From Synechococcus lacustris str. Tous (GTDB lineage: Bacteria > Cyanobacteriota > Cyanobacteriia > PCC-6307 > Cyanobiaceae): 44,375 bases of DNA. Shown in pieces: positions 32,229 through 44,375 of this stretch. The position numbers and the translations under genes are program-made. The stretch lies in assembly GCF_003011125.1 (NCBI RefSeq), contig NZ_PXVC01000013.1, positions 1 to 44,375 on the forward strand, in the 5' to 3' direction. The notes beneath the pieces are model-generated. The model saw only the letters and a list, made by a program, of their open reading frames with translations, did no database searches and was not told the DNA's origin. Positions within the stretch are counted from its first letter, which is position 1. Every line of letters begins with the position of its first letter.

Positions 32229-32729
32229 ATGCTTGAGCATCTGCTTCCCCCCCTCAACGACCACAACCTGCCTTGGATGGACACTATTCATCCAATAGTT
32301 GTGCACTTCGTTATTGCGATGGCATTGATTTCAGTGCTGTTTGATTTTATCGGTGTGGTTACAGGTAGGCGGGCTTTGTTTGAAGTGAGTTGGTGGAATC
32401 TGTTATTTGCCACCAGCGCCATCTTTGTGGCGATCATGTTTGGCCAGGTGGAGGCCGGCTTGGCCAACCCCTATGGTGATGCGCGCAACATTTTAAATAT
32501 CCATAGCACCATAGGCTGGTCTTTGGCGGGGGTTCTATCTGTGCTTACCGGCTGGCGCTATGTATTGAGAGCCAAGGATCCGCTCAGCTTGCCGCTGGTC
32601 TTCCTTGGCGCTGATTCTTTATTGGCTGCTTTGGTGGTTGTGCAGGTTTTCCTTGGCGATAAATTGATATGGGTATATGGGCTACACACGGTGAAGGTGG
32701 TGGAAGCAATGCGGGCGGGGTTGGTGTAA
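32229..32729 (+). CDS. DUF2231 membrane protein, first of a pair
   Basis: A 166-residue membrane protein with four hydrophobic segments. The DUF2231 signature is DTIHPIVVHFVIAMA near the N-terminus, with two His. Later His residues sit in NIHSTIGW and YGLHTVK. The family is often next to respiratory oxidases and could bind haem through these His, but no function is proven. ATG 32229 was preferred over TTG 32217. Its stop overlaps the next start as TAATG. It is the first gene of the oxidase operon. Confidence 0.85.
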   Translation: MLEHLLPPLNDHNLPWMDTIHPIVVHFVIAMALISVLFDFIGVVTGRRALFEVSWWNLLFATSAIFVAIMFGQVEAGLANPYGDARNILNIHSTIGWSLAGVLSVLTGWRYVLRAKDPLSLPLVFLGADSLLAALVVVQVFLGDKLIWVYGLHTVKVVEAMRAGLV

Positions 32730-33358
32730 TGCAGTTTTTTAATGTGGTGCTGCCATCAGAAAGCCCCTTAAATCAAATTGCAGCCGGCCTAGGGCCCAAT
32801 GATCTGCCCTATAGCCTGCCGATTCACCCTAATTTAGTTCATCTAACCATTGGCTTATTTGTTATAGCCATTGCGTTCGACTTCGCAGGAGCTTTTTATC
32901 CTTTGGAGAAGCGTATTTTTCGCTTCTTGGCATTGCCGGTAACTAGGCCAGGTTTACATGATGTGGGTTGGTATAACCTCCTTGCTTGCGCAGTGATTAG
33001 TTTTTTTACAGTTACTGCTGGCTTTTATGAGATGCTCACGGCGGTGCCATTGGCAGGCGTTAAAAGTACCTTTGGCCTCGAAAGTTTTGTAACGATGACC
33101 TGGCATGGGGTTGGTGGGGTGCTGATTCTTTTGGTGATCGTACTGATGACTATTTGGAGAGGTTATCAACGCTTTGTTTGGCGCAAAGATATGGGTAGGC
33201 AGGTGCAATGGCCCTATTTATTTGCTGGGGTGGTGATGATGGGCGTTTTAGGGCTTCACGGCACCCTTGGTGCTCAGTTAGCTGCTGAGTTTGGCGTTCA
33301 CATAACCGCAGATCAGCTGCTGGCCGCTGGCGCTGATCTTAAGGAGGCACTGCCATGA
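32729..33358 (+). CDS. DUF2231 membrane protein, second of a pair
   Basis: A 209-residue relative of the preceding protein, with LPIHPNLVHLTIGLFVIAIAFD and MTWHGVGGVLILLVIVLM, and four predicted membrane helices. The longer frame upstream lies inside the first gene; the TAATG overlap at 32727-32731 fixes the start. Its TGA overlaps the ATG of the oxidase subunit II gene as ATGA. Tight coupling on both sides suggests a role as accessory subunit or assembly protein of the oxidase; this is inference. Confidence 0.85.
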   Translation: MQFFNVVLPSESPLNQIAAGLGPNDLPYSLPIHPNLVHLTIGLFVIAIAFDFAGAFYPLEKRIFRFLALPVTRPGLHDVGWYNLLACAVISFFTVTAGFYEMLTAVPLAGVKSTFGLESFVTMTWHGVGGVLILLVIVLMTIWRGYQRFVWRKDMGRQVQWPYLFAGVVMMGVLGLHGTLGAQLAAEFGVHITADQLLAAGADLKEALP

Positions 33359-34290
33359 ATAGCTCCTCAACGCGCATTAATTATTCCGCCTTGGCCTTGG
33401 TTAGCACCTGGACCGGTGTATTGGTGGTATTCAGTTTCTGGATGAGTCGCCAGGCATACCACTGGTTACCTGTTCAAGCTTCAACAGCTGCGCCCCTGGT
33501 GGATGGCTTGTTCAGCTTTGAAACCGCCTTGGCAACTTTTGTGTTTTTTGGTGTTATCTCAGTGATGGCTTGGGTTGTGATATTTAATCGGGCTGAGAAA
33601 TACGACATGAGTGATGCAGAACCAATTGAAGGCAATACCCGCTTGGAAATCATCTGGACGGTTATTCCAGCACTAATTGTTTTTGGCATTGCCTTCTATT
33701 CAGTGCGTGTTAATCAAAAGCTTGCAGTGTTAGGGCCGATGGAGCACATCCATCGCGGTGATCCAATTGAAGAGGTGGGTGGTTTCTTGGGGGATCGCCT
33801 ACCAGCTGAGCAGGTGGAGGTAACTGCTAGGCAATGGTCTTGGCAATTCAACTATCCGGCGGCCAAAGTTAGCTCTACTGAATTGCATTTACCTGTTGAT
33901 AAGCCAGTAACCTTCAGATTGGTTAGTGAAGATGTAATCCATGGATTTTATGTGCCAGCATTTAGATTAAAACAAGACATTATTCCAGGCCGGGCAATCA
34001 ATTTAAATCTCACCCCCACCCGCGAAGGGCGTTATCGCTTACGCGATTCGATGTATAGCGGCACTTGGTTTTCCACCAATCAAGCCGATGTGGTGGTTGA
34101 ATCTGAGGCGGAATACAACAGTTGGCTCCTACAAGCTGCCAGCCAACCACTCCAGCCGGGTTTAAGTGATGCGGTGGCTGAATACAAACAACGCCAGGCA
34201 GAAGGTGCAAGGGGATGGCCCACCGTTGTGCCAGCTCCCGCCCCGATGGTGAATGTGCCCGGCTCCAATCAACTCCCCCATAACGGTTAA
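33355..34290 (+). CDS. ctaC: Cytochrome oxidase subunit II of the alternative (ARTO) type, CuA site lost
   Basis: A 311-residue subunit II with hydrophobic segments at about 13-30, 58-77 and 97-117 (LEIIWTVIPALIVFGIAFYS) and a periplasmic/lumenal cupredoxin domain (ARQWSWQFNYP, DVIHGFYVPAFRLKQDIIPG). The first CuA ligand His196 remains, but where family members have CxxxCxxxHxxM this protein reads DSMYSGTWFSTN, with Asp231, Ser235, Phe239 and Asn242. CuA therefore cannot form. This matches the second cyanobacterial oxidase (ARTO, ctaII), thought to take electrons from quinol rather than cytochrome c. ctaD follows after 3 bases. Confidence 0.93.
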   Translation: MNSSSTRINYSALALVSTWTGVLVVFSFWMSRQAYHWLPVQASTAAPLVDGLFSFETALATFVFFGVISVMAWVVIFNRAEKYDMSDAEPIEGNTRLEIIWTVIPALIVFGIAFYSVRVNQKLAVLGPMEHIHRGDPIEEVGGFLGDRLPAEQVEVTARQWSWQFNYPAAKVSSTELHLPVDKPVTFRLVSEDVIHGFYVPAFRLKQDIIPGRAINLNLTPTREGRYRLRDSMYSGTWFSTNQADVVVESEAEYNSWLLQAASQPLQPGLSDAVAEYKQRQAEGARGWPTVVPAPAPMVNVPGSNQLPHNG

Positions 34291-34293
34291 ATC

Positions 34294-35985
34294 ATGACCC
34301 TCGCTTCCTACGATCCCCGCGTGCTGAAATCAAATGCCCCCGTGCCAGGGGCACCTGATAATTGGAAACGCTTTTTTAGTTTCAATACCGATGCCAAGGT
34401 GATTGGTATTCAATACATCACAGTAGCGATATTTTTTCTTCTGATTGGCGGTTTGCTTGCAATGATAATGCGGGGCGAATTAATCACCCCAGAAAATGAT
34501 TTAGTAGACCGCACTGTGTATAACGGACTCTACACAATGCATGGAACTATCATGCTGTTTATGTTTATTTTTCCTGTGTTGAATGGTTTAAATAATTTAT
34601 TGATCCCCACGATGATCGGCGCCCCAGATATGGCTTTCCCAAGGCTTAATGCAGTGGCCTTTTGGTTGGTTCCAATTTTTGGTGTGATTTTAATTTCCAG
34701 CTTCCTACTTCCCGGTGGACCGGCTAACTCAGGCTGGTGGTCTTACCCACCTGTGAGTACTCAAAACCCTCTGGGTAATTTGGTTAGCGGCGAGGGGATG
34801 TGGCTCACAGCCGTGGCACTTTCGGGCGTTTCCTCGATTATGGGAGCCGTGAATTTTGTTACTACGATCATAAGAATGCGGGCCCCTGGGATGACTTTTT
34901 TCCGCATGCCGATATTTATTTGGACGGCCTGGGCGGCCCAATCTCTCCAGTTGATTGGCTTACCGGCCCTCACCGGTGGAGCAATAATGCTTCTATTCGA
35001 TTTGGTTGTTGGAACAAGCTTCTTTCAGCCTGAGGGTGGCGGGGATCCCGTGCTCTATCAACATTTTTTCTGGTTCTATTCCCACCCAGCCGTTTATGTG
35101 ATCATTTTGCCTGTATTTGGTATTTTTTCTGAGCTATTCAGTGCCCATTCTCGCAAACCATTGTTTGGCTATGCCTTTGTTGCTTTGGCATCATTTGCGA
35201 TTGTGTTCTTGGGCTTGATCGTTTGGGTGCACCACTTTTTCCCCAGTGGCGTGCCTGAGTGGATGAGAAATCTTTTCATGGTTACAACCATGTTGATTTC
35301 TGTGCCAACCGGTGTGAAGGTATTTGCCTGGCTTGCAACCATTTGGGGCGGTAAGTTACGCCTAAATACGCCGATGCTTTTCAGCCTAGGAGGTTTGTTT
35401 AATTTTGTTTTTGCTGGGGTAACAGGAATTATGTTGGCCACTGTGCCCATAGATATTCACGTTAATAACACCTACTTTGTTGTTGGGCACTTCCACTATG
35501 TAATCTACGGCGCTGCAGTGATGGGCATCTATGCAGCAATATATCATTGGTTTCCTAAGTTTACCGGTCGCATGTATTATGAGGGTTTGGGAAAATTGCA
35601 CTTCTTCTTAACATTTATTGGAACAAATTTGAATTTCTTTCCAATGCATCCCCTTGGCTTAATGGGAATGCCAAGGCGTGTTTCTTCCTACGACCCTGAG
35701 TTTACTTTTTGGAATGTGGTGGCAAGTTTAGGTAGTTTTTTGCTCGGTGTTTCGATAATTCCTTTTCTTATCAATATGATCAGCTCTTGGGTTCGGGGGC
35801 CGCAAGCACCCCAAAATCCTTGGAATGCCATTGGTTTGGAATGGCTTTTGCCCTCGCCACCGCCTGCTGAGAATTTTGAGGAAAACGTACCTACTGTTAT
35901 CAGTGGGCCCTATGGCTACGGCACTGGAAAGCCTCTTGTGGAAAATCAAAGTGCTTACGAAAACCAATCTCTTTTAGAGGCATAA
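34294..35985 (+). CDS. ctaD: Cytochrome oxidase subunit I (haem-copper oxidase, A2 type)
   Basis: A 563-residue haem-copper oxidase catalytic subunit with 12 or more helices. The haem a His is in YTMHGTIMLFMF. CuB and the cross-linked Tyr are in FYSHPAVYVIILP, the other two CuB His in VHHFFPSGVPEW, and the haem a3 and second low-spin His in VGHFHYVIYG. The K-channel Lys is in VPTGVKVF. The YSHPAVY motif, without the Glu of GHPEVY, marks the A2 subtype. It reduces O2 to water with proton pumping. It is the core of the operon, 3 bases from subunits II and III. Confidence 0.96.
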   Translation: MTLASYDPRVLKSNAPVPGAPDNWKRFFSFNTDAKVIGIQYITVAIFFLLIGGLLAMIMRGELITPENDLVDRTVYNGLYTMHGTIMLFMFIFPVLNGLNNLLIPTMIGAPDMAFPRLNAVAFWLVPIFGVILISSFLLPGGPANSGWWSYPPVSTQNPLGNLVSGEGMWLTAVALSGVSSIMGAVNFVTTIIRMRAPGMTFFRMPIFIWTAWAAQSLQLIGLPALTGGAIMLLFDLVVGTSFFQPEGGGDPVLYQHFFWFYSHPAVYVIILPVFGIFSELFSAHSRKPLFGYAFVALASFAIVFLGLIVWVHHFFPSGVPEWMRNLFMVTTMLISVPTGVKVFAWLATIWGGKLRLNTPMLFSLGGLFNFVFAGVTGIMLATVPIDIHVNNTYFVVGHFHYVIYGAAVMGIYAAIYHWFPKFTGRMYYEGLGKLHFFLTFIGTNLNFFPMHPLGLMGMPRRVSSYDPEFTFWNVVASLGSFLLGVSIIPFLINMISSWVRGPQAPQNPWNAIGLEWLLPSPPPAENFEENVPTVISGPYGYGTGKPLVENQSAYENQSLLEA

Positions 35986-35988
35986 GCA

Positions 35989-36573
35989 ATGGAAAGCACA
36001 GGCAACCAACACAATCAAGGCATGCATGCCAACCACAATCTCACTGGATTTATAATTTTTCTCTGTTCGGAAAGTGTAATATTCCTCGCCTTTTTCTCAG
36101 GCTATGCCTTGCTTAAGTTGAATGCCCTTGATTGGTTACCCCACGGGGTGGAGGGTTTGGAATGGCAAACACCACTGATTAACACCTTTGTGCTGGTTTC
36201 TAGTTCAGGAACTATTTATTTGGCTGAGCGGCAGATGGCCCGCCACAATGTTTGGGGTTTTCGTGGTTGGTGGCTGGCAACCATGGCCCTGGGGGGCTAT
36301 TTCCTCTGGGGGCAAGCGGTGGAATGGAGCGGTTTGAAGTTTGGTTTTACTTCAGGTACATTTGGCGGCACTTTTTACCTGCTCACTGGTTTTCACGGCT
36401 TACATGTTTTAACTGGTGTATTGTTGATGGCCTTAATGTTAGGCAAATCATTCATACCTAATAATTACAAAGGCGGGGAACAGGGCATTCAGGCCACCTC
36501 CCTGTTTTGGCATTTTGTGGATGTGATTTGGATCATCCTCTTTGTGCTCATATACGTGTGGCAACGTTCTTGA
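35989..36573 (+). CDS. ctaE: Cytochrome oxidase subunit III
   Basis: A 194-residue subunit III with five hydrophobic helices. FIIFLCSESVIFLAFFSGY carries the conserved Glu of the lipid/proton region, FYLLTGFHGLHVLTGVLLM the family signature, and the C-terminus WHFVDVIWIILFVLIYVW ends as expected. ATG 35989, 3 bases after subunit I. A GGAGG ribosome-binding site lies right after its stop, in front of the first GMC gene. Confidence 0.95.
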   Translation: MESTGNQHNQGMHANHNLTGFIIFLCSESVIFLAFFSGYALLKLNALDWLPHGVEGLEWQTPLINTFVLVSSSGTIYLAERQMARHNVWGFRGWWLATMALGGYFLWGQAVEWSGLKFGFTSGTFGGTFYLLTGFHGLHVLTGVLLMALMLGKSFIPNNYKGGEQGIQATSLFWHFVDVIWIILFVLIYVWQRS

Positions 36574-36585
36574 GGAGGCACTCCA

Positions 36586-38100
36586 ATGATCATTGACGAC
36601 CAGCATTACGACGTGATCATCGTTGGCAGTGGTGCTGCCGGGGGAACCATGGCAGGGGCCCTTGCCTCTAAGGGCCATAGGGTGCTGCTGCTTGAGAGGG
36701 GGCGCCAGATGGCGCTCGCTGATCAAAACGTTGCTGATGTAGATCTATTTCGCAAGGATCGTTATCACCCAGCTGAGCGTTGGTTTGGCCCAGATGGTGA
36801 TCCATTTGCCCCTCAAACTATTTATGGCCTAGGCGGCAATACCAAAATTTGGGGTGCTGTGCTTGAGCGGATGCGAGAGAAAGATTTTGAAGAGCTACAT
36901 TTGCAAACTGGTATTTCCCCAAGCTGGGAACTCAACTATTCAGATTTTGCCCCATATTACGAAAAGGCAGAGAAGTTATATCACGTTCATGGGGTGGCGG
37001 GAGTAGATCCAACTGAGCCGGCGAGAAAGAATGAATTTGTTGGTAAGCCAAAACCATTGGAACCCTTTTTTGAACCTTTGCGTGCTGCCCTCCAGCGCCA
37101 GGGAGTTAAACCCTATGATTTACCAATAAGTTGGTCTAATAATCAAGATGATCCCAGTGGAGATTCAGAAGTTTTTGGAGTGGCAACGGCTATTGAAGAT
37201 CCTTCTTTTCATTTAAGGATAGAGGCTAAGGTTACTTGTTTACATGTTAATGCCTCCGGTAATGAAGTTAAAGGTGTTGAGGCATTAATTCAAAATCAGG
37301 CATGGCTTTTTCAGGCGAATTTTGTGGTGCTGGCGGCCGGTGCAGTGAATACCCCAGCTATTTTATTGCGATCATCCAGTGATGCCCATCCCCGCGGCTT
37401 GAGCAACGGATCGGATCAGGTTGGACGCAATTTAATGAAATTGCAACTTTCATCGATATTGCAATTAGCCGCCGCACCAAATTCCGGTCGCTATCAGCGC
37501 TCATTTGGGATTAATGATTATTATTGGGGTGATAAAAATGTTCAATTCCCCCTTGGCCATATTCAAAGTTGTGGTGGGGTTTTGCAGGATGCATTGTTTG
37601 CTGAATCACCACCGGTTTTATCATTAGTATCTAAATTACTGCCAAATTTTGGCCTTGAGGAGCTTGCCGCTCGATCGGTTGCCTGGTGGGCGATGAGTGA
37701 GGTTTTACCAGATCCCCATAACAAAATCAGCCTTCAGGGTGAGCAGATTCGTCTTAACTACATACCTAACAATCGAGAGGCCCATGACCGTTTGGTTTAT
37801 CGCTGGATAGACACCCTAAAAGCTATCGAGGCCGACCCTTTAACCCATGTGGTGCGTCAGGCGCCCACCCACCCGAGGGGAGAAGCACCAATAAGTGTGA
37901 TGGGTTATGCCTGCGGCACCACTCGAATGGGTAGTAATCCCGCAACATCGGTGGTTGATTTACAAGGCAGAAGCCACGAGATTCAAAATTTATATATTAT
38001 TGACGCAAGCATATTTCCCAGTTGCCCAAGTATTGGACCAGGTTTAACTGTTATTGCAAATGCACTGCGGGTGGCTGAACATCTTGAGGCAGAGCTTTGA
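36586..38100 (+). CDS. GMC family flavoprotein with catalytic residues replaced (GMC-1)
   Basis: A 504-residue glucose-methanol-choline oxidoreductase. The FAD dinucleotide fold is intact: IIVGSGAAGG at residues 11-20, E37 in LLLERGR, and GLGGNTKIWG at 81-90. The C-terminal domain aligns with the neighbouring GMC-2, but the catalytic His is Tyr441 (GYACGTTRMG) and the catalytic Asn is Gly484 (SIGPGLT). A cysteine cluster present in GMC-2 is also missing around residue 185. It may bind FAD yet not oxidise an alcohol by the usual mechanism, or may act as a structural partner. No signal peptide. It follows ctaE by 12 bases behind a GGAGG site and overlaps the glycosidase start. Confidence 0.9.
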   Translation: MIIDDQHYDVIIVGSGAAGGTMAGALASKGHRVLLLERGRQMALADQNVADVDLFRKDRYHPAERWFGPDGDPFAPQTIYGLGGNTKIWGAVLERMREKDFEELHLQTGISPSWELNYSDFAPYYEKAEKLYHVHGVAGVDPTEPARKNEFVGKPKPLEPFFEPLRAALQRQGVKPYDLPISWSNNQDDPSGDSEVFGVATAIEDPSFHLRIEAKVTCLHVNASGNEVKGVEALIQNQAWLFQANFVVLAAGAVNTPAILLRSSSDAHPRGLSNGSDQVGRNLMKLQLSSILQLAAAPNSGRYQRSFGINDYYWGDKNVQFPLGHIQSCGGVLQDALFAESPPVLSLVSKLLPNFGLEELAARSVAWWAMSEVLPDPHNKISLQGEQIRLNYIPNNREAHDRLVYRWIDTLKAIEADPLTHVVRQAPTHPRGEAPISVMGYACGTTRMGSNPATSVVDLQGRSHEIQNLYIIDASIFPSCPSIGPGLTVIANALRVAEHLEAEL

Positions 38101-40796
38101 ATTCCACCATTGGCGATCAGCTTGGATTTAGTTCAGAGCAGCGACGCATTGCAGAGCGAAATGAAGCGCATCAACAATGGGATCTCTGGGGCAGCTATTT
38201 AAGTGATAGGCAATGGGGAACGGTTAGAGAGGATTATTCTGCTGATGGTAATGCATGGAATTCGTTTCCCCATCAACAAGCAAGATCAAGGGCCTATCGC
38301 TGGGGAGAGGACGGTTTACTTGGAATTAGCGATGAACATGGCCGGCTATGTTTTGGCATCGCCCTATGGAATGGCCAAGACCCAATTTTAAAGGAAAGAC
38401 CCTTTGGCCTTGGTAATGGTGAGGGTAACCATGGTGAAGATCTAAAAGATTATTTTTATCATCTACTCAACAGCCCAACCCATAGTTTTATGCGGGGCTT
38501 ATATAAATACCCGCAAGCGGAATTTCCCTATCAACAATTAATTGAAGAAAATTCAAGGCGCACTAGAGAAGATCCTGAATACGAGCTAATCGATACTGGC
38601 ATTTTTGCTGAAAATCGCTATTTTGATGTTTTTGTTGATTATGCAAAAGCTAGTCCAACGGATATATTGATACGAATTAAGATTATTAATCGTGGCCCTG
38701 ATTCTGCGCCTTTAACTGTTTTACCAAGCCTCTGGCTCCGCAATCAATGGTCTTGGGGATATCGTGAGGAATGGCGCCAAAAAAAGCAGATCAAACTTTG
38801 TGGCAATTCAATTTCTACGGATGATATTCATGAATTAGGTGCCTACCAACTTTCCTGTAACCATCCGGGTGAGTGGATTTTTACCGAAAATGAAACAAAT
38901 ACGGAGCTGTTATTTAATCAGCCGAATGCACAGCCATATGTAAAGGATGCTTTTCATCGCTATGTGGTTGATTCTGATCTGTCTGCCGTAAATCCGGCAA
39001 ATGTTGGAAGCAAGGCTAGCTTAGTTCTATCAAAACAACTTAATTCTGGTGAGGAGTGGGTTATTAACTTGCGGCTAAGTAATCAAGCCTTAACCGAGCC
39101 GTTTTCCAGTTCATTCAACAGCACTTTTGAGTTGCGAGAAAAGGAATGTATTGAATACCTTAATCATGCAGCGGAAGGATTAAAAGCTGATGATGCCCAT
39201 ATATTTAAAGCAGCTGCTAGCGGCTTACTTTGGTGCAAAAAGTTCTATCATTGGAGTGTTGCTCGCTGGTTGAGTGGTGATCCTAATCAGCCCGCTCCAC
39301 CTGAATCACGTAAACATACTGAAAATGCTTATTGGAGCCGTTTGTTTGCTGATGATGTTATTTCAATGCCTGATAGCTGGGAATACCCATATTTTTGTCA
39401 ATGGGATTTAATGTTCCACTCGGTTGCATTTGCTGTTATTGATCCAGCCATAGCTAAAAAGCAATGCATGCTTTTACGCTCGCCAAATTACACAGCCCCT
39501 AATGCCCAAACCCCAGCCTATGAATGGGCTTTATCTGATCCAAATCCGCCAATTGGGGCATGGGCAGCATTAAGAATTTTTCAAATTGAACGTAGGGAAA
39601 GGGAGCATGGCGATTTTGTGTTTCTTCGATCGGCGATGCGTAAGCTACTTTTAGAATATGGTTGGTGGGCAAATAGAAATGATAGATCTGGCGATAATGT
39701 GTTTGAAGGTGGCTTCCTTGGTTTAGATAATATTGCTGTTTTTGATAGGCGATTCCCCTTAGCTGATGGCAGCAGGATTGAGCAATGCGATGGCACTGCT
39801 TGGATGGCAATGTTGAGTTTAAACCTCTTGCAAATTGCCGTTGAACTAAGCGTTCAAGAACCTGAGTATGAGGATATTTCTAAGCGTTTTGTGTTTGACT
39901 TTGCCCAATTAGCCATAACTTTGAATACCCCTTCCATCAGCGGGCGTAGCTATGTTAATTGGGATGAAAAAGATGGTTTTTACTATGATGTAATTAAGCG
40001 GCCTGATGGCTCTTGGACATATCTAAAAACACGATCTGTGTCTGGCCTTATTCCACTTTTGGCGGTTGCAAGTTTTGATATTGCAACTGTTGAAAGGCTT
40101 CCTTGCTTGGATGTACTTCAATCGTTTGAATGGCATTTTTCCGAACGTACTTGCACTACATGGTTGTCGGAAAATCTTGGCACTTGGCATCAAGATAGAA
40201 CCTTATTCAGCCTTGTGCCAGAGGCTAATTTGAGAAGAATTTGTTGGTATTTATTTAACGAAGATGAATTTTTATCTCCCTATGGTATCCGCTCCCTCTC
40301 GAAAGTGTATGAAAAATCTCCCTACACTTTTAGGGAAGGTGATCAAGAACAAACCCTTGCCTATAGCCCAGCAGACAGCCCTGTAGCTATGTTTGGAGGT
40401 AATTCCAATTGGCGCGGACCTGTGTGGATGCCAATTAATTACCTATTAATTGAGGCCCTGCAGAAATTTGGTCATTATTATGGAGATAGTTTTATGGTTG
40501 AATTCCCCACTGGCTCCGGTAATTTCATTACTTTGTGGGATGCATCGTTAGAACTTGAAAAGAGGTTGGCTAGTATCTTTAGGCGAAATGATAAAAATGA
40601 GCGTCCTTTTAACGGTGGCAATAGTTTGTTCCAGCACGATCCAAATTGGCGTGATTTGATTCTTTTTAACGAATATTTTCACGGCGACAATGGCTCGGGT
40701 GTTGGAGCTAGCCATCAAACTGGTTGGACCGCGATTGTTCTGAAAATGATTACCCAACTAAACCGCTACAACCCGATTGCGGGAAAGAGATTTTGA
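38097..40796 (+). CDS. GH63/MGH1-like glycosidase, first copy
   Basis: An 899-residue protein of the bacterial GH63-like (MGH1-type) glucosidase group. An N-terminal beta-sandwich (about 1-330, DRQWGTVREDYSADGNAW, FGLGNGEGNHGEDLKDYF) precedes an (alpha/alpha)6 barrel with WEYPYFCQWDLMFH (about 430), PAYEWALSDPNPP, GGFLGLDNIAVFDRRFPL, EQCDGTAWM (about 563), FGGNSNWRGPVWMP (about 767) and GDNGSGVGASHQTGW (about 863). Relatives hydrolyse glucosylglycerate, mannosylglycerate or alpha-glucosides. The TTG start overlaps the GMC-1 stop. The last residues (about IAGKRF) coincide with GMC codons read in another frame, so the native C-terminus has been replaced at a deletion junction. No signal peptide. 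Confidence 0.88.
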   Translation: MNSTIGDQLGFSSEQRRIAERNEAHQQWDLWGSYLSDRQWGTVREDYSADGNAWNSFPHQQARSRAYRWGEDGLLGISDEHGRLCFGIALWNGQDPILKERPFGLGNGEGNHGEDLKDYFYHLLNSPTHSFMRGLYKYPQAEFPYQQLIEENSRRTREDPEYELIDTGIFAENRYFDVFVDYAKASPTDILIRIKIINRGPDSAPLTVLPSLWLRNQWSWGYREEWRQKKQIKLCGNSISTDDIHELGAYQLSCNHPGEWIFTENETNTELLFNQPNAQPYVKDAFHRYVVDSDLSAVNPANVGSKASLVLSKQLNSGEEWVINLRLSNQALTEPFSSSFNSTFELREKECIEYLNHAAEGLKADDAHIFKAAASGLLWCKKFYHWSVARWLSGDPNQPAPPESRKHTENAYWSRLFADDVISMPDSWEYPYFCQWDLMFHSVAFAVIDPAIAKKQCMLLRSPNYTAPNAQTPAYEWALSDPNPPIGAWAALRIFQIERREREHGDFVFLRSAMRKLLLEYGWWANRNDRSGDNVFEGGFLGLDNIAVFDRRFPLADGSRIEQCDGTAWMAMLSLNLLQIAVELSVQEPEYEDISKRFVFDFAQLAITLNTPSISGRSYVNWDEKDGFYYDVIKRPDGSWTYLKTRSVSGLIPLLAVASFDIATVERLPCLDVLQSFEWHFSERTCTTWLSENLGTWHQDRTLFSLVPEANLRRICWYLFNEDEFLSPYGIRSLSKVYEKSPYTFREGDQEQTLAYSPADSPVAMFGGNSNWRGPVWMPINYLLIEALQKFGHYYGDSFMVEFPTGSGNFITLWDASLELEKRLASIFRRNDKNERPFNGGNSLFQHDPNWRDLILFNEYFHGDNGSGVGASHQTGWTAIVLKMITQLNRYNPIAGKRF

Positions 40797-42057
40797 GGAG
40801 TTAATTCATGTTGATGGCATTTCTCCTGCTTGGCCCCTTCGCTACAACGATTTTGAGCCCTACTACACAAGGGCTGAGGCCATGTACCACGTTCATGGCG
40901 AACGGGGTGAAGATCCCACTGAACCAAGTGCCAGTGCTCCCTATCCCTATCCACCCATTAAACATGAGCCGCGCATGCAGCAATTGGTTGATGGTTTTAA
41001 AGCTGCGGGATTACATCCCTTCCATGCACCTACCGGTGTGAATCTAGATGAGGCCAATCTGCCATTTAGTGCTTGTGTGAAATGCAATAGATGTGATGGT
41101 TTCCCTTGCCTGCTCCATGCCAAAGGGGATGCTGAGGTTATGGGCATAAGGGCTGGTCTTGGTTTAGCCAACAGTTCTCTAACTCTTTTAACTCGCTGCC
41201 ACGTATTAAAGTTAATAACCAATTTAGCTGGCGATACTATTACCGAGGTGCTCGTTGATAGAGATGGGGAAAAACTAAAATTCACTGGTGATATTGTTGT
41301 TGTTAGCTGTGGAGCCGCTAATTCTGCCAGGCTGCTTCTTATGTCTGCAAATGATAAGCACCCCAATGGTTTAGCTAATCGATCAGACCAGGTGGGCCGT
41401 AATTATATGTATCATAATTGCAAGGCAGTTGTTGCTTTGGGTCGGGAGCCTAATGATACAATTTTTCAAAAAACCATAGCCGTTAATGATTGGTATTTTG
41501 GCGACAATAATTTTGATTTCCCCATTGGTAATATTCAGATGACGGGTAAAACTAATGGTGCAATGATGAAGGGCTACAAGCCTAAGCTCACAGCCCTTGC
41601 TCCCACTTGGTCTATGGATAAGCTGGCTGAAAGATCCCTTGATTTTTGGTTGCAAACTGAAGATTTACCCAGGCCAGATAACCGTGTAACTGTTGATTCA
41701 AGCGGTCAAATAACCCTAAGCTATCTGCCTACAAACGATCGGGCTTCAAATGAGTTGATGGTTCGGCTTGAGCGTTTGCTTGATAAAATGTATCAACAGG
41801 ATCATTTAGCAGAGAGGCAAATTTATTTTGCTTCTGACATGGCAATAGCTGCTGTTGGCCACCAAGCTGGAACTTGTAGGTTTGGCACCAATCCTGAGGA
41901 TTCTGTGCTTGATTTGAATTGTAAGGCCCACGACTTAGATAATTTATATGTTGTTGATACAAGTTTTTTCCCTAGTATTGGTGCGGTTAATCCTTCTTTA
42001 ACAGCTATTGCAAATGCGATCAGGGTTTCTGAGCATTTGGTTGAAAGGCTTGGCTAA
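40777..42057 (+). CDS. GMC family oxidoreductase lacking its N-terminal FAD-binding part (GMC-2)
   Basis: 426 residues from TTG 40777, aligning with GMC-1 from its residue 96 onward (MRERDFEEL with MREKDFEEL). About 95 N-terminal residues are absent, including GxGxxG and the GGxxxxWG segment, so FAD binding on its own is doubtful. The catalytic residues are intact: His at about 362 in GHQAGTCRFG and Asn at about 405 in GAVNPSLT. Residues 100-111 hold C-x2-C-x2-C-x4-C (CVKCNRCDGFPC). The frame is closed 5' by TAA at 40759-40761, inside the glycosidase gene. A later in-frame ATG is at 40882. It may be a decaying gene, a split-enzyme half or an assembly artefact. Confidence 0.85.
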   Translation: MRERDFEELIHVDGISPAWPLRYNDFEPYYTRAEAMYHVHGERGEDPTEPSASAPYPYPPIKHEPRMQQLVDGFKAAGLHPFHAPTGVNLDEANLPFSACVKCNRCDGFPCLLHAKGDAEVMGIRAGLGLANSSLTLLTRCHVLKLITNLAGDTITEVLVDRDGEKLKFTGDIVVVSCGAANSARLLLMSANDKHPNGLANRSDQVGRNYMYHNCKAVVALGREPNDTIFQKTIAVNDWYFGDNNFDFPIGNIQMTGKTNGAMMKGYKPKLTALAPTWSMDKLAERSLDFWLQTEDLPRPDNRVTVDSSGQITLSYLPTNDRASNELMVRLERLLDKMYQQDHLAERQIYFASDMAIAAVGHQAGTCRFGTNPEDSVLDLNCKAHDLDNLYVVDTSFFPSIGAVNPSLTAIANAIRVSEHLVERLG

Positions 42058-42088
42058 GCATTAATCAACTCAACTTGACAAACAAACA

Positions 42089-44375
42089 ATGAATTCCTCC
42101 GCCTTCACCCAGTCTGCTGAATACAGCCGGTTGCATAGCTCCTCAGTTGATGCTGTTGATTGGCATCTTTGGGGAACCTATCTTCCCGACCGTCAATGGG
42201 GAACGGTGCGTGAATGCTACGCCGAGGATGGGAATGCTTGGAAAGCATTCCCCCATGATCATGCTCGATCGCGCGTTTATCGTTGGGGTGAGGATGGATT
42301 ATTTGGTTGGACTGATCGTAATTGCCATTTGTGCTTTGCTCCAGCTTTTTGGAATGGTAAGGACCCAATTCTTAAGGAGCGCCTATTTGGTTTAGCAAAT
42401 CATGAGGGTAACCATGGTGAAGATGTAAAAGAGGCCTACTACCATATTTTAAATACGCCAACCTACAGCTATGCAAAAGCTTTATATGTATACCCAATAA
42501 GTGAATATCCTTACAAACAGCTCATAGCGGAAAATGCAAAACTAACTCGCAACGATCATGAATTTGAAATTGAACAAACAGGTGTTTTGAGTAATAATAA
42601 CGTTTTCCACTGTACCATTGAATATGCAAAAGATTATTTTGATGATACATTCATTCGAATCAGTGTTAAGAATCTTTCTGCGGATCCGGCATATATAGCC
42701 GTGTTGCCAACGCTCTGGATCCGCAATTCATGGAAGTGGGGCTATCCAGGCATTAGCAAAAGGAATATAACTGTGAATTCTGATGGCTCTTTGTTTGTAC
42801 CTGAGTTGTTAGGCCCAGGGGTTCAGCGTTTTTCTCAGGATAAGTTTCCTGCCCATTATTTTTATTGCGACCAACCTAATCAGTGGTTATTTACCGATAA
42901 TGAAACTAATTGTGAGCTTTTATTTGCAACTGCTGATGGCGAAAAATATACTAAAGACGCATTCCATCGCTATTTGGTTAATGGAGAGAAGCAAGCAGTT
43001 AATCCAGCGCTAGAAGGTACAAAGGCTGCAATGATTTGCGAAAATACTATTTCAGCAGGTGATACTTGGGTTATTAATTGTAGATTATCCTCTAAATCTC
43101 ATGTCAACCCATTTTCTGATTCTTCAATGATTCTTGCGAGAAGAGAGGAGGAGGCACAAGATTTCTACGCATCATATCAAAGAATAAAGAATTTTAAATC
43201 AAGTGAAGATCTCAGCTTATTTGCGGCCGCGTCTTCTGGGCTTTTATGGTCTTGTAAGTATTATGAGTTGAATTTATACCGTTGGTTAAAAGGTGATCCA
43301 GGTCAGTTAGCGCCCCCTCAATCTCGTTGGCATAGTGACTATCGTAATTGGAAATATTTGCATGCCCACGATATTTTTGTTATGCCAGATGCCTGGGAAT
43401 ATCCTTACTTTTGCAAGTGGGATTTGATGTTCCATGCTGTTGCCTTTGCTGATTTAGATCCCGCATTTGCTAAGAATCAAAGTGGTATTTTGCGCACCTC
43501 TCGGTATGTGTCGCCACAGGCGCAGGTTCCGGCCTATGAATGGGCATTTTCTGATGTTGATCCACCGCTTGCTTCATGGGCAACATGGAGAATTTTTACT
43601 ATTGATAGAAATCACACGGGTATTCCAGATTATCGATTTCTTGAGGAATCGATAAAAACATTATTGCTTGAATATGGATGGTGGAGTAATCGTAATGCCC
43701 GCACTGATTCCGCCTTATTTGATGGTGGATTTCTTGGTTTAGATAATATCTCCCCTTTCGACCGTAGATATCCACTTAGTGATGGCAGCCGTATTGAGCA
43801 GGCTGATGGTACAGCTTGGATGGGGTTGCTTACGATTTATATGTTGAAGATAGTAGTTGCTTTAAAACAACGGGCTATAAATGTGCTCCATAACAGTAGT
43901 GCTGAATATAGTGGTGAAATGGTTCAACGGCTTGTTATTAGCTTTATGCATTCTGTATCCTCCCTTAATAGTAAGGAAGAGCGTGGCTATTTGAACTGGG
44001 ATTGCCAAGATGGTTTTTACTATGATCTTTTAAGAAGGCCTGATGGAACGGCTGAATATATAAGAGTTAGGTCACTAACTGGAATTATCCCCCTACTAGC
44101 TGTGCAATCTTTTGGCGGTAGTGATTTGGAAGTTGATAAGAATTTAAACATGGATAATGCAATCTTGTCCTATGTGCAAGTTCACGGTATTGATGATTAC
44201 AGCCTTTCTCTTGCCCATCTTGGATGCTACTCAACTGGTAGATATCTTTTTGCAATGGTTTCCCCCTATCGGCTGAGAAGAGTGTGCAGATGGTTGTTTG
44301 ATGAATCTGAATTTCTATCTGATTATGGCATACGTAGCCTTTCTAAGTTTCATGAATCAAATCCTTTCTCAATGA
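42089..44375 (+). CDS. GH63/MGH1-like glycosidase, second copy (partial, runs off the window)
   Basis: An open frame of 762 codons from ATG 42089 to the window edge, with no stop. It is a paralogue of the first glycosidase throughout: DRQWGTVRECYAEDGNAW, ANHEGNHGEDVKEAYYHIL, WEYPYFCKWDLMFHAV (about 440), PAYEWAFSDVDPPLASWA, FDGGFLGLDNISPFDRRYPL and EQADGTAWMG (about 571). The copies share motifs but are clearly diverged, so the duplication is not recent. It begins 31 bases after GMC-2, completing a second GMC-glycosidase module. It is AT-richer by eye than the RNA polymerase genes. The last ~130 residues, with the GNSNWRGP and HQTGW motifs, lie outside. Confidence 0.9.
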   Translation, partial: MNSSAFTQSAEYSRLHSSSVDAVDWHLWGTYLPDRQWGTVRECYAEDGNAWKAFPHDHARSRVYRWGEDGLFGWTDRNCHLCFAPAFWNGKDPILKERLFGLANHEGNHGEDVKEAYYHILNTPTYSYAKALYVYPISEYPYKQLIAENAKLTRNDHEFEIEQTGVLSNNNVFHCTIEYAKDYFDDTFIRISVKNLSADPAYIAVLPTLWIRNSWKWGYPGISKRNITVNSDGSLFVPELLGPGVQRFSQDKFPAHYFYCDQPNQWLFTDNETNCELLFATADGEKYTKDAFHRYLVNGEKQAVNPALEGTKAAMICENTISAGDTWVINCRLSSKSHVNPFSDSSMILARREEEAQDFYASYQRIKNFKSSEDLSLFAAASSGLLWSCKYYELNLYRWLKGDPGQLAPPQSRWHSDYRNWKYLHAHDIFVMPDAWEYPYFCKWDLMFHAVAFADLDPAFAKNQSGILRTSRYVSPQAQVPAYEWAFSDVDPPLASWATWRIFTIDRNHTGIPDYRFLEESIKTLLLEYGWWSNRNARTDSALFDGGFLGLDNISPFDRRYPLSDGSRIEQADGTAWMGLLTIYMLKIVVALKQRAINVLHNSSAEYSGEMVQRLVISFMHSVSSLNSKEERGYLNWDCQDGFYYDLLRRPDGTAEYIRVRSLTGIIPLLAVQSFGGSDLEVDKNLNMDNAILSYVQVHGIDDYSLSLAHLGCYSTGRYLFAMVSPYRLRRVCRWLFDESEFLSDYGIRSLSKFHESNPFSM

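Follow-up and report, generated by a model that had tools for sequence, protein, structure and literature searches.

A conserved GMC-fold companion of a cyanobacterial terminal oxidase, with a putative glycosidase-dehydrogenase module beside it, in Synechococcus lacustris

The window analysed here, a stretch of 44,375 nucleotides (nt) from Synechococcus lacustris str. Tous, is the whole of contig NZ_PXVC01000013.1 (C35) in a genome of 2.67 Mb and 305 contigs. From position 32229 to the contig end it carries nine open reading frames (ORFs), all on the forward strand, in the order DUF2231a, DUF2231b, CtaC, CtaD, CtaE, GMC1, GH1, GMC2 and GH2, that is, two membrane proteins, three subunits of an alternative respiratory terminal oxidase (ARTO), and two GMC proteins each followed by a glycoside hydrolase. 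With the start of DUF2231b placed at 32726, the spacing between ORFs ranges from -20 to +31 nt, and the initial annotation, which had described this one-strand order, its tight spacing and the families concerned, is confirmed in these respects by family matches and ORF coordinates. Inspection of the sequences likewise bears out its statement on export signals, none being apparent on GMC1, GH1, GMC2 or GH2, and the order of the genes suggests that the cluster may be co-transcribed.

The cluster opens with DUF2231a (32229 to 32729; PF09990, E 2.6e-35), a protein of 166 aa with four predicted transmembrane helices, followed by DUF2231b (32726 to 33358; PF09990, E 4.7e-37), whose start, at either GTG 32726 or ATG 32729, overlaps the stop of its neighbour, by 4 nt if the GTG is used. 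The oxidase comprises CtaC, or subunit II (33355 to 34290; COX2 and COX2_TM matches), the haem-copper subunit I CtaD (34294 to 35985; PF00115, 512.7 bits), and CtaE, or subunit III (35989 to 36573; PF00510, E 1.2e-29). Where the genome's other CtaC, on contig C236, has the CuA motif CAELCGPYHGGM, the CtaC of the window has RLRDSMYSGTWFSTNQ, and CuA ligands are absent from all 73 CtaC sequences of the family (this one included) and from a more distant set. Because its subunit II lacks the CuA ligands, the oxidase is by sequence an ARTO, as had been proposed; all three subunits, I to III, are present, the enzyme is distinct from the genome's COX, and a normal CuA-bearing oxidase is encoded elsewhere in the same genome. 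ARTO operons are already known. The Anabaena ARTO/Qox operon (alr2729-alr2730-coxB3-coxA3-coxC3; PMC6616624) and ctaC2-D2-E2 of marine picocyanobacteria likewise combine a CuA-less subunit II with subunits I and III (PMC6616624, PMC10119275), and in the former, as here, the oxidase genes are preceded by two others, a likeness in gene position. It has been called not clear if further subunits beyond these three belong to the cyanobacterial ARTO/Qox (PMC6616624).

We find that the gene following the oxidase, GMC1 (36586 to 38100), is a regular companion of it. When 84,980 species genomes were searched with an alignment of GMC1, 216 relatives came back; the best 80 were examined, a set that leans towards picocyanobacteria. 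Every picocyanobacterial locus with enough upstream DNA (68/68) has the full series DUF2231a, DUF2231b, CtaC, CtaD and CtaE, in this order, ahead of GMC1, and the gap between CtaE and GMC1 has a median of 11 nt. A further 20 loci were selected on GMC1 score, with about 50 % identity in GMC1, and 16 of them show all six genes in this order; in the remaining four, a contig end cuts the cluster or GMC1 is located apart. Outside the family, the order holds in 14 of 18 of those loci. Moreover, in an even sample of 291 genomes of the class, 146 had an ARTO-type CtaC among the matches listed, from which the low-scoring end is missing, and these included 126 with GMC1, lying within 9 kb in 112. The conservation check proposed with the initial annotation thus found the order kept in other genomes, distant families included, and DUF2231a-DUF2231b-CtaC-CtaD-CtaE-GMC1 is an ancient core. 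We found no mention of GMC1 as a sixth ARTO gene in the ARTO/Qox papers found, and no paper in the open-licence literature linking a GMC protein with ARTO or a terminal oxidase in cyanobacteria. Both DUF2231 genes occur with ARTO but no GMC1 in family f32 and in some genomes of genus g80, and clusters of DUF2231 and ARTO genes with no adjoining GMC1 (L167, L168, L169 and L171) provide a natural comparison set for the contribution of GMC1. In family f32 genomes, many CtaC matches contain one in-frame stop (TAA, TAG or TGA) inside the matched stretch.

GMC1 retains the N-terminal GxGxxG motif for flavin adenine dinucleotide (FAD) and the GMC fold, and its AlphaFold2 model (mean pLDDT 77) has fructose dehydrogenase as its nearest fold (E 7e-38). 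FAD-glucose dehydrogenase and fructose dehydrogenase are the best solved relatives of GMC1 as well as of GMC2, yet unlike them GMC1 has neither the catalytic His/Asn pair nor their cysteines. Tyr441 stands at the catalytic His position, which in relatives is Y, G, S, F, N or L and rarely H; Gly484 stands at that of the Asn, a Gly in 73 of 81 sequences and otherwise mostly S or P. This loss is class-wide, being seen in picocyanobacteria and distant cyanobacteria alike, while Cys443 is invariant in an alignment of 24 sequences. To judge from these residues, GMC1 is probably no ordinary sugar oxidase. Since it is highly conserved, lacks the catalytic pair and lies so regularly beside ARTO, we infer that it is an electron-transfer or accessory partner of the oxidase. 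Consequently, we do not retain the view of the initial annotation that the locus holds two GMC-glycosidase modules each reducing quinone, given that GMC1 is without the catalytic pair and accompanies ARTO where there is no glycosidase at all. Two equal modules are further rejected because GMC1 and GMC2 fall into separate clades and differ in both active site and gene neighbourhood.

The DUF2231 proteins share in this conservation. DUF2231a has four invariant histidines (His21, His26, His92 and His153) across 16 cyanobacterial sequences, and DUF2231b, conserved in 61 loci, has six (His47/52/91/140/191/205 in alignment numbering). The AlphaFold2 model of DUF2231a consists of four helices (mean pLDDT 75). 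As candidates for a known haem protein by fold they were rejected, since no PDB match reached significance (the best, to cytochrome bd, had E 0.18); the other non-significant matches, to cytochrome b561 and oxidase subunit III, amount to a generic four-helix bundle. Nothing relevant to DUF2231 function was found in the open-licence literature.

Compared with the cyanobacterial ARTO/Qox operon, the locus has GH1-GMC2(-GH2) appended. GH1 (38097 to 40796) encodes a GH63/mannosylglycerate hydrolase (MGH1)-like glycoside hydrolase of 899 aa, with PF22422 (64.1 bits) and PF03200 (32.8 bits against a curated cut-off of 22.4) both over threshold. Asp437 (QWDLMF) and Glu859 (FNEYFHGDNG) are invariant in 24 relatives; they lie in motifs of the expected kind and, by motif, are candidate catalytic residues. 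Unlike solved GH63 enzymes, GH1 belongs to a cyanobacterial subfamily of about 890 aa of only remote similarity, and its match to yeast glucosidase I (4j5t) is weak. Of 76 testable loci, 58 have GH1 next to GMC1, and in 45 of 48 GMC2 comes directly after GH1; Synechococcus WH7803 is among the marine strains whose loci lack GH1. The module is joined to ARTO in freshwater/RCC307-type picocyanobacteria (the Cyanobium, S. lacustris and RCC307 kind) and not in those of the WH7803-type marine group. All Cyanobiaceae GH1 copies of the ARTO-linked kind form one clade, and two unlinked copies nest within it, which fits a single joining event and later separation. In other families, homologues of the hydrolase and GMC2 occur with a MIP channel and a glucose-1-dehydrogenase-like SDR, with no ARTO in the loci seen. 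On these comparisons we regard GH1-GMC2 as a separate and older module, appended to the 3' end of the ARTO operon. Several cyanobacterial families share a recurring cassette in which a GH63-like hydrolase and an Fe-S GMC dehydrogenase stand with a MIP channel and a glucose-dehydrogenase-like SDR (L051, L052, L162, L163 and L165); the MIP channel would suit a glycoside of a polyol, for example glucosylglycerol, and a genome search found no MIP gene in the genome of the window.

This distribution bears on an alternative in which GMC1 and the DUF2231 proteins serve ARTO structurally or in its assembly, GH1-GMC2 is an unrelated sugar-degradation module that is simply co-transcribed, and the oxidase draws plastoquinol from the general pool with no electron path of its own. 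Such an explanation would account for the catalytic pair missing from GMC1, for the DUF2231-CtaCDE clusters of family f32 and some g80 genomes that do without GMC1, and for marine Synechococcus with no glycosidase beside it, and it agrees with the description of ARTO as a quinol oxidase (PMC6616624). It does not sit well, however, with the strong conservation of the FAD motif and the full GMC fold in GMC1, or with the repeated occurrence of GH1-GMC2 in tight order behind it, and we consider it possible, with about a third of our confidence.

GMC2 is of a different kind from GMC1. His452, Asn495 and Cys192/195/198/203 are present in all 47 orthologues; the pair corresponds to His476/Asn519 of the Burkholderia cepacia FAD-glucose dehydrogenase, and Cys192/198/203 align with its [3Fe-4S] ligands Cys212/218/222, residues named as such for that enzyme (PMC6719666). 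GMC2 thus shares the His/Asn pair and three [3Fe-4S] cysteines with the large subunits of that enzyme and of Gluconobacter fructose dehydrogenase, its best solved relatives, yet differs from both systems in that no small (gamma) subunit family was found and GMC2 bears no export signal. The initial annotation had counted GMC2 as a gene of the set, but at 40777 to 42057 it is not intact: it begins at about residue 93 of its orthologues, as assembled. Full-length relatives have 516 to 545 aa with GxGxxG near the N-terminus (516 codons in the same-genus genome G001), while the copy in the window is without some 92 N-terminal residues, the FAD-binding Rossmann motif among them, and retains the four cysteines and the His/Asn pair. 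In G003, also of this genus, GH1 ends at its stop codon and, after a short gap, GMC2 begins with its start intact, whereas here the 3' end of GH1 is fused straight to GMC2 codon ~93. The 20-nt overlap of the two genes therefore marks a deletion or misjoin of about 0.3 kb, placed at 40770 to 40790 by alignment with G001 and G003, which has removed the 3' end of GH1, the intergenic gap and the 5' end of GMC2. The loss may be genuine or may stem from a misjoin or other assembly error; the missing 5' piece was not found in a search of the other contigs, and a genuine truncation would mean that the GMC2 step is broken in this strain. In G003, contigs C59 and C82 (L004 and L036) also break within GMC2, past residue ~60 and ahead of residue ~330 when counted on the intact gene, and this region may be a spot that is hard to assemble.

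Taken together, we propose that an ARTO operon core has acquired GH1-GMC2 as a source of electrons. Cytoplasmic GH63-like hydrolases (GH1 and GH2) would release a sugar, most likely glucose, from an internal glycoside; GMC2 would oxidise it to a lactone or keto-sugar, holding the electrons on FAD and passing them through its [3Fe-4S] cluster to the membrane, where ARTO would reduce O2 with them. GMC1 would sit at the cytoplasmic face of the oxidase as an electron-transfer or accessory subunit, with the DUF2231 proteins at the interface. The substrate, each electron step and the roles of GMC1 and DUF2231 are what we infer, and this scheme as a whole carries about half of our confidence. The first part of the pathway suggested initially, from glycosidase to flavoprotein, gains from the relationship of GMC2 to FAD-glucose and fructose dehydrogenases and from the company of an SDR, both of which fit sugar release and oxidation; its second part, the passage of electrons to quinone or ARTO, is plausible.

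Several observations weigh against this proposal. The transcript, the substrate and the electron-transfer steps are all deduced from sequence, and the GMC2 of the window has, as assembled, no FAD-binding domain. Subunit I scores closer to the cytochrome c oxidase (CoxA) model than to quinol-oxidase models, the NCBIfam versions of which fall far under their cut-offs as well as under the CoxA score, and the electron donor of the oxidase cannot be read from the sequence. Searches of the genome for small-subunit families of the FAD-glucose dehydrogenase type (gluconate_2-dh3/FAD-SLDH) found none, with a PF12318 positive control that itself gave no match; a multi-haem cytochrome c subunit is likewise absent from the operon genes, to which that search was confined. 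Finally, since GH-GMC2 exists without ARTO in other families and ARTO-GMC1 without GH-GMC2, neither module needs the other.

A bolder variant would give ARTO more than three subunits, GMC1 being a dedicated FAD subunit that feeds in cytoplasmic electrons, DUF2231a and DUF2231b haem- or quinone-binding membrane partners, and GMC2 the upstream donor in picocyanobacteria; this we think rather unlikely, although if true it would amount to a private glycoside-to-O2 respiratory chain in these organisms. The physiological role of ARTO is itself debated between electron sink and iron reduction. Iron reduction by Synechocystis drops on loss of ARTO, and ARTO is enriched in low-iron Prochlorococcus (PMC10119275, PMC7676907), so that the oxidase might serve mainly for Fe(III) reduction with GMC1 as its flavin carrier and the sugar genes as electron supply. 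Yet GMC1 carries no export signal, while the reduction of iron is believed to take place in the periplasm, and the genes are kept in freshwater species too, which makes this highly improbable. Leaving these variants aside, GMC1, a flavoprotein that has lost the catalytic pair and is conserved beside ARTO over a large part of the class, makes a concrete candidate for an additional subunit or point of electron entry, and the attached GH-GMC2 module is a candidate source of the physiological ARTO substrate in abundant picocyanobacteria.

The last ORF, GH2 (42089 to 44375; PF22422, 32 bits), is a second GH63/MGH1-like hydrolase. Listed initially as the final glycosidase, it in fact runs off the end of the contig and is completed on C295, another contig, which opens with 639 nt of the GH2 gene, 96 % identical, with Ns in C295 and exact agreement at both ends; we read this overlap as strain variation in a co-assembled population. 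GH2 copies form the sister clade of GH1, and on this tree GH2 is a lineage-specific extra copy, added in this genus. The MGH1-like domain in both hydrolases would speak for the compatible-solute route suggested at the outset, in which the enzyme would be a glucosylglycerate hydrolase and the operon would burn glucosylglycerate. Against this, the genomes G000, G001 and G003 of this genus have no GpgS-like gene (E < 1e-25), and among 12 Cyanobiaceae genomes a single one holds such a gene together with GH1, a weak test given an unspecific GpgS model; furthermore, known MGH-type hydrolases are about half the size of the GH1 protein. We regard this route as unsupported and very doubtful.

Beyond GH2, C295 continues with a glutathione-peroxidase-like gene, so named by its look and without a family search, as in G001. 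C295 also encodes a glucose-dehydrogenase-like SDR that shares 73 % identity with the SDR found close to a GH1-GMC2 pair not linked to ARTO (L042). The GC content of the window, 0.51 upstream of GH1, drops to 0.41-0.44 across GH1, GMC2 and GH2 (38097 to 44375); in G001 it is 0.50 in GH1 and 0.47 in GH2, compared with 0.52-0.57 in CtaD, GMC1 and GMC2.

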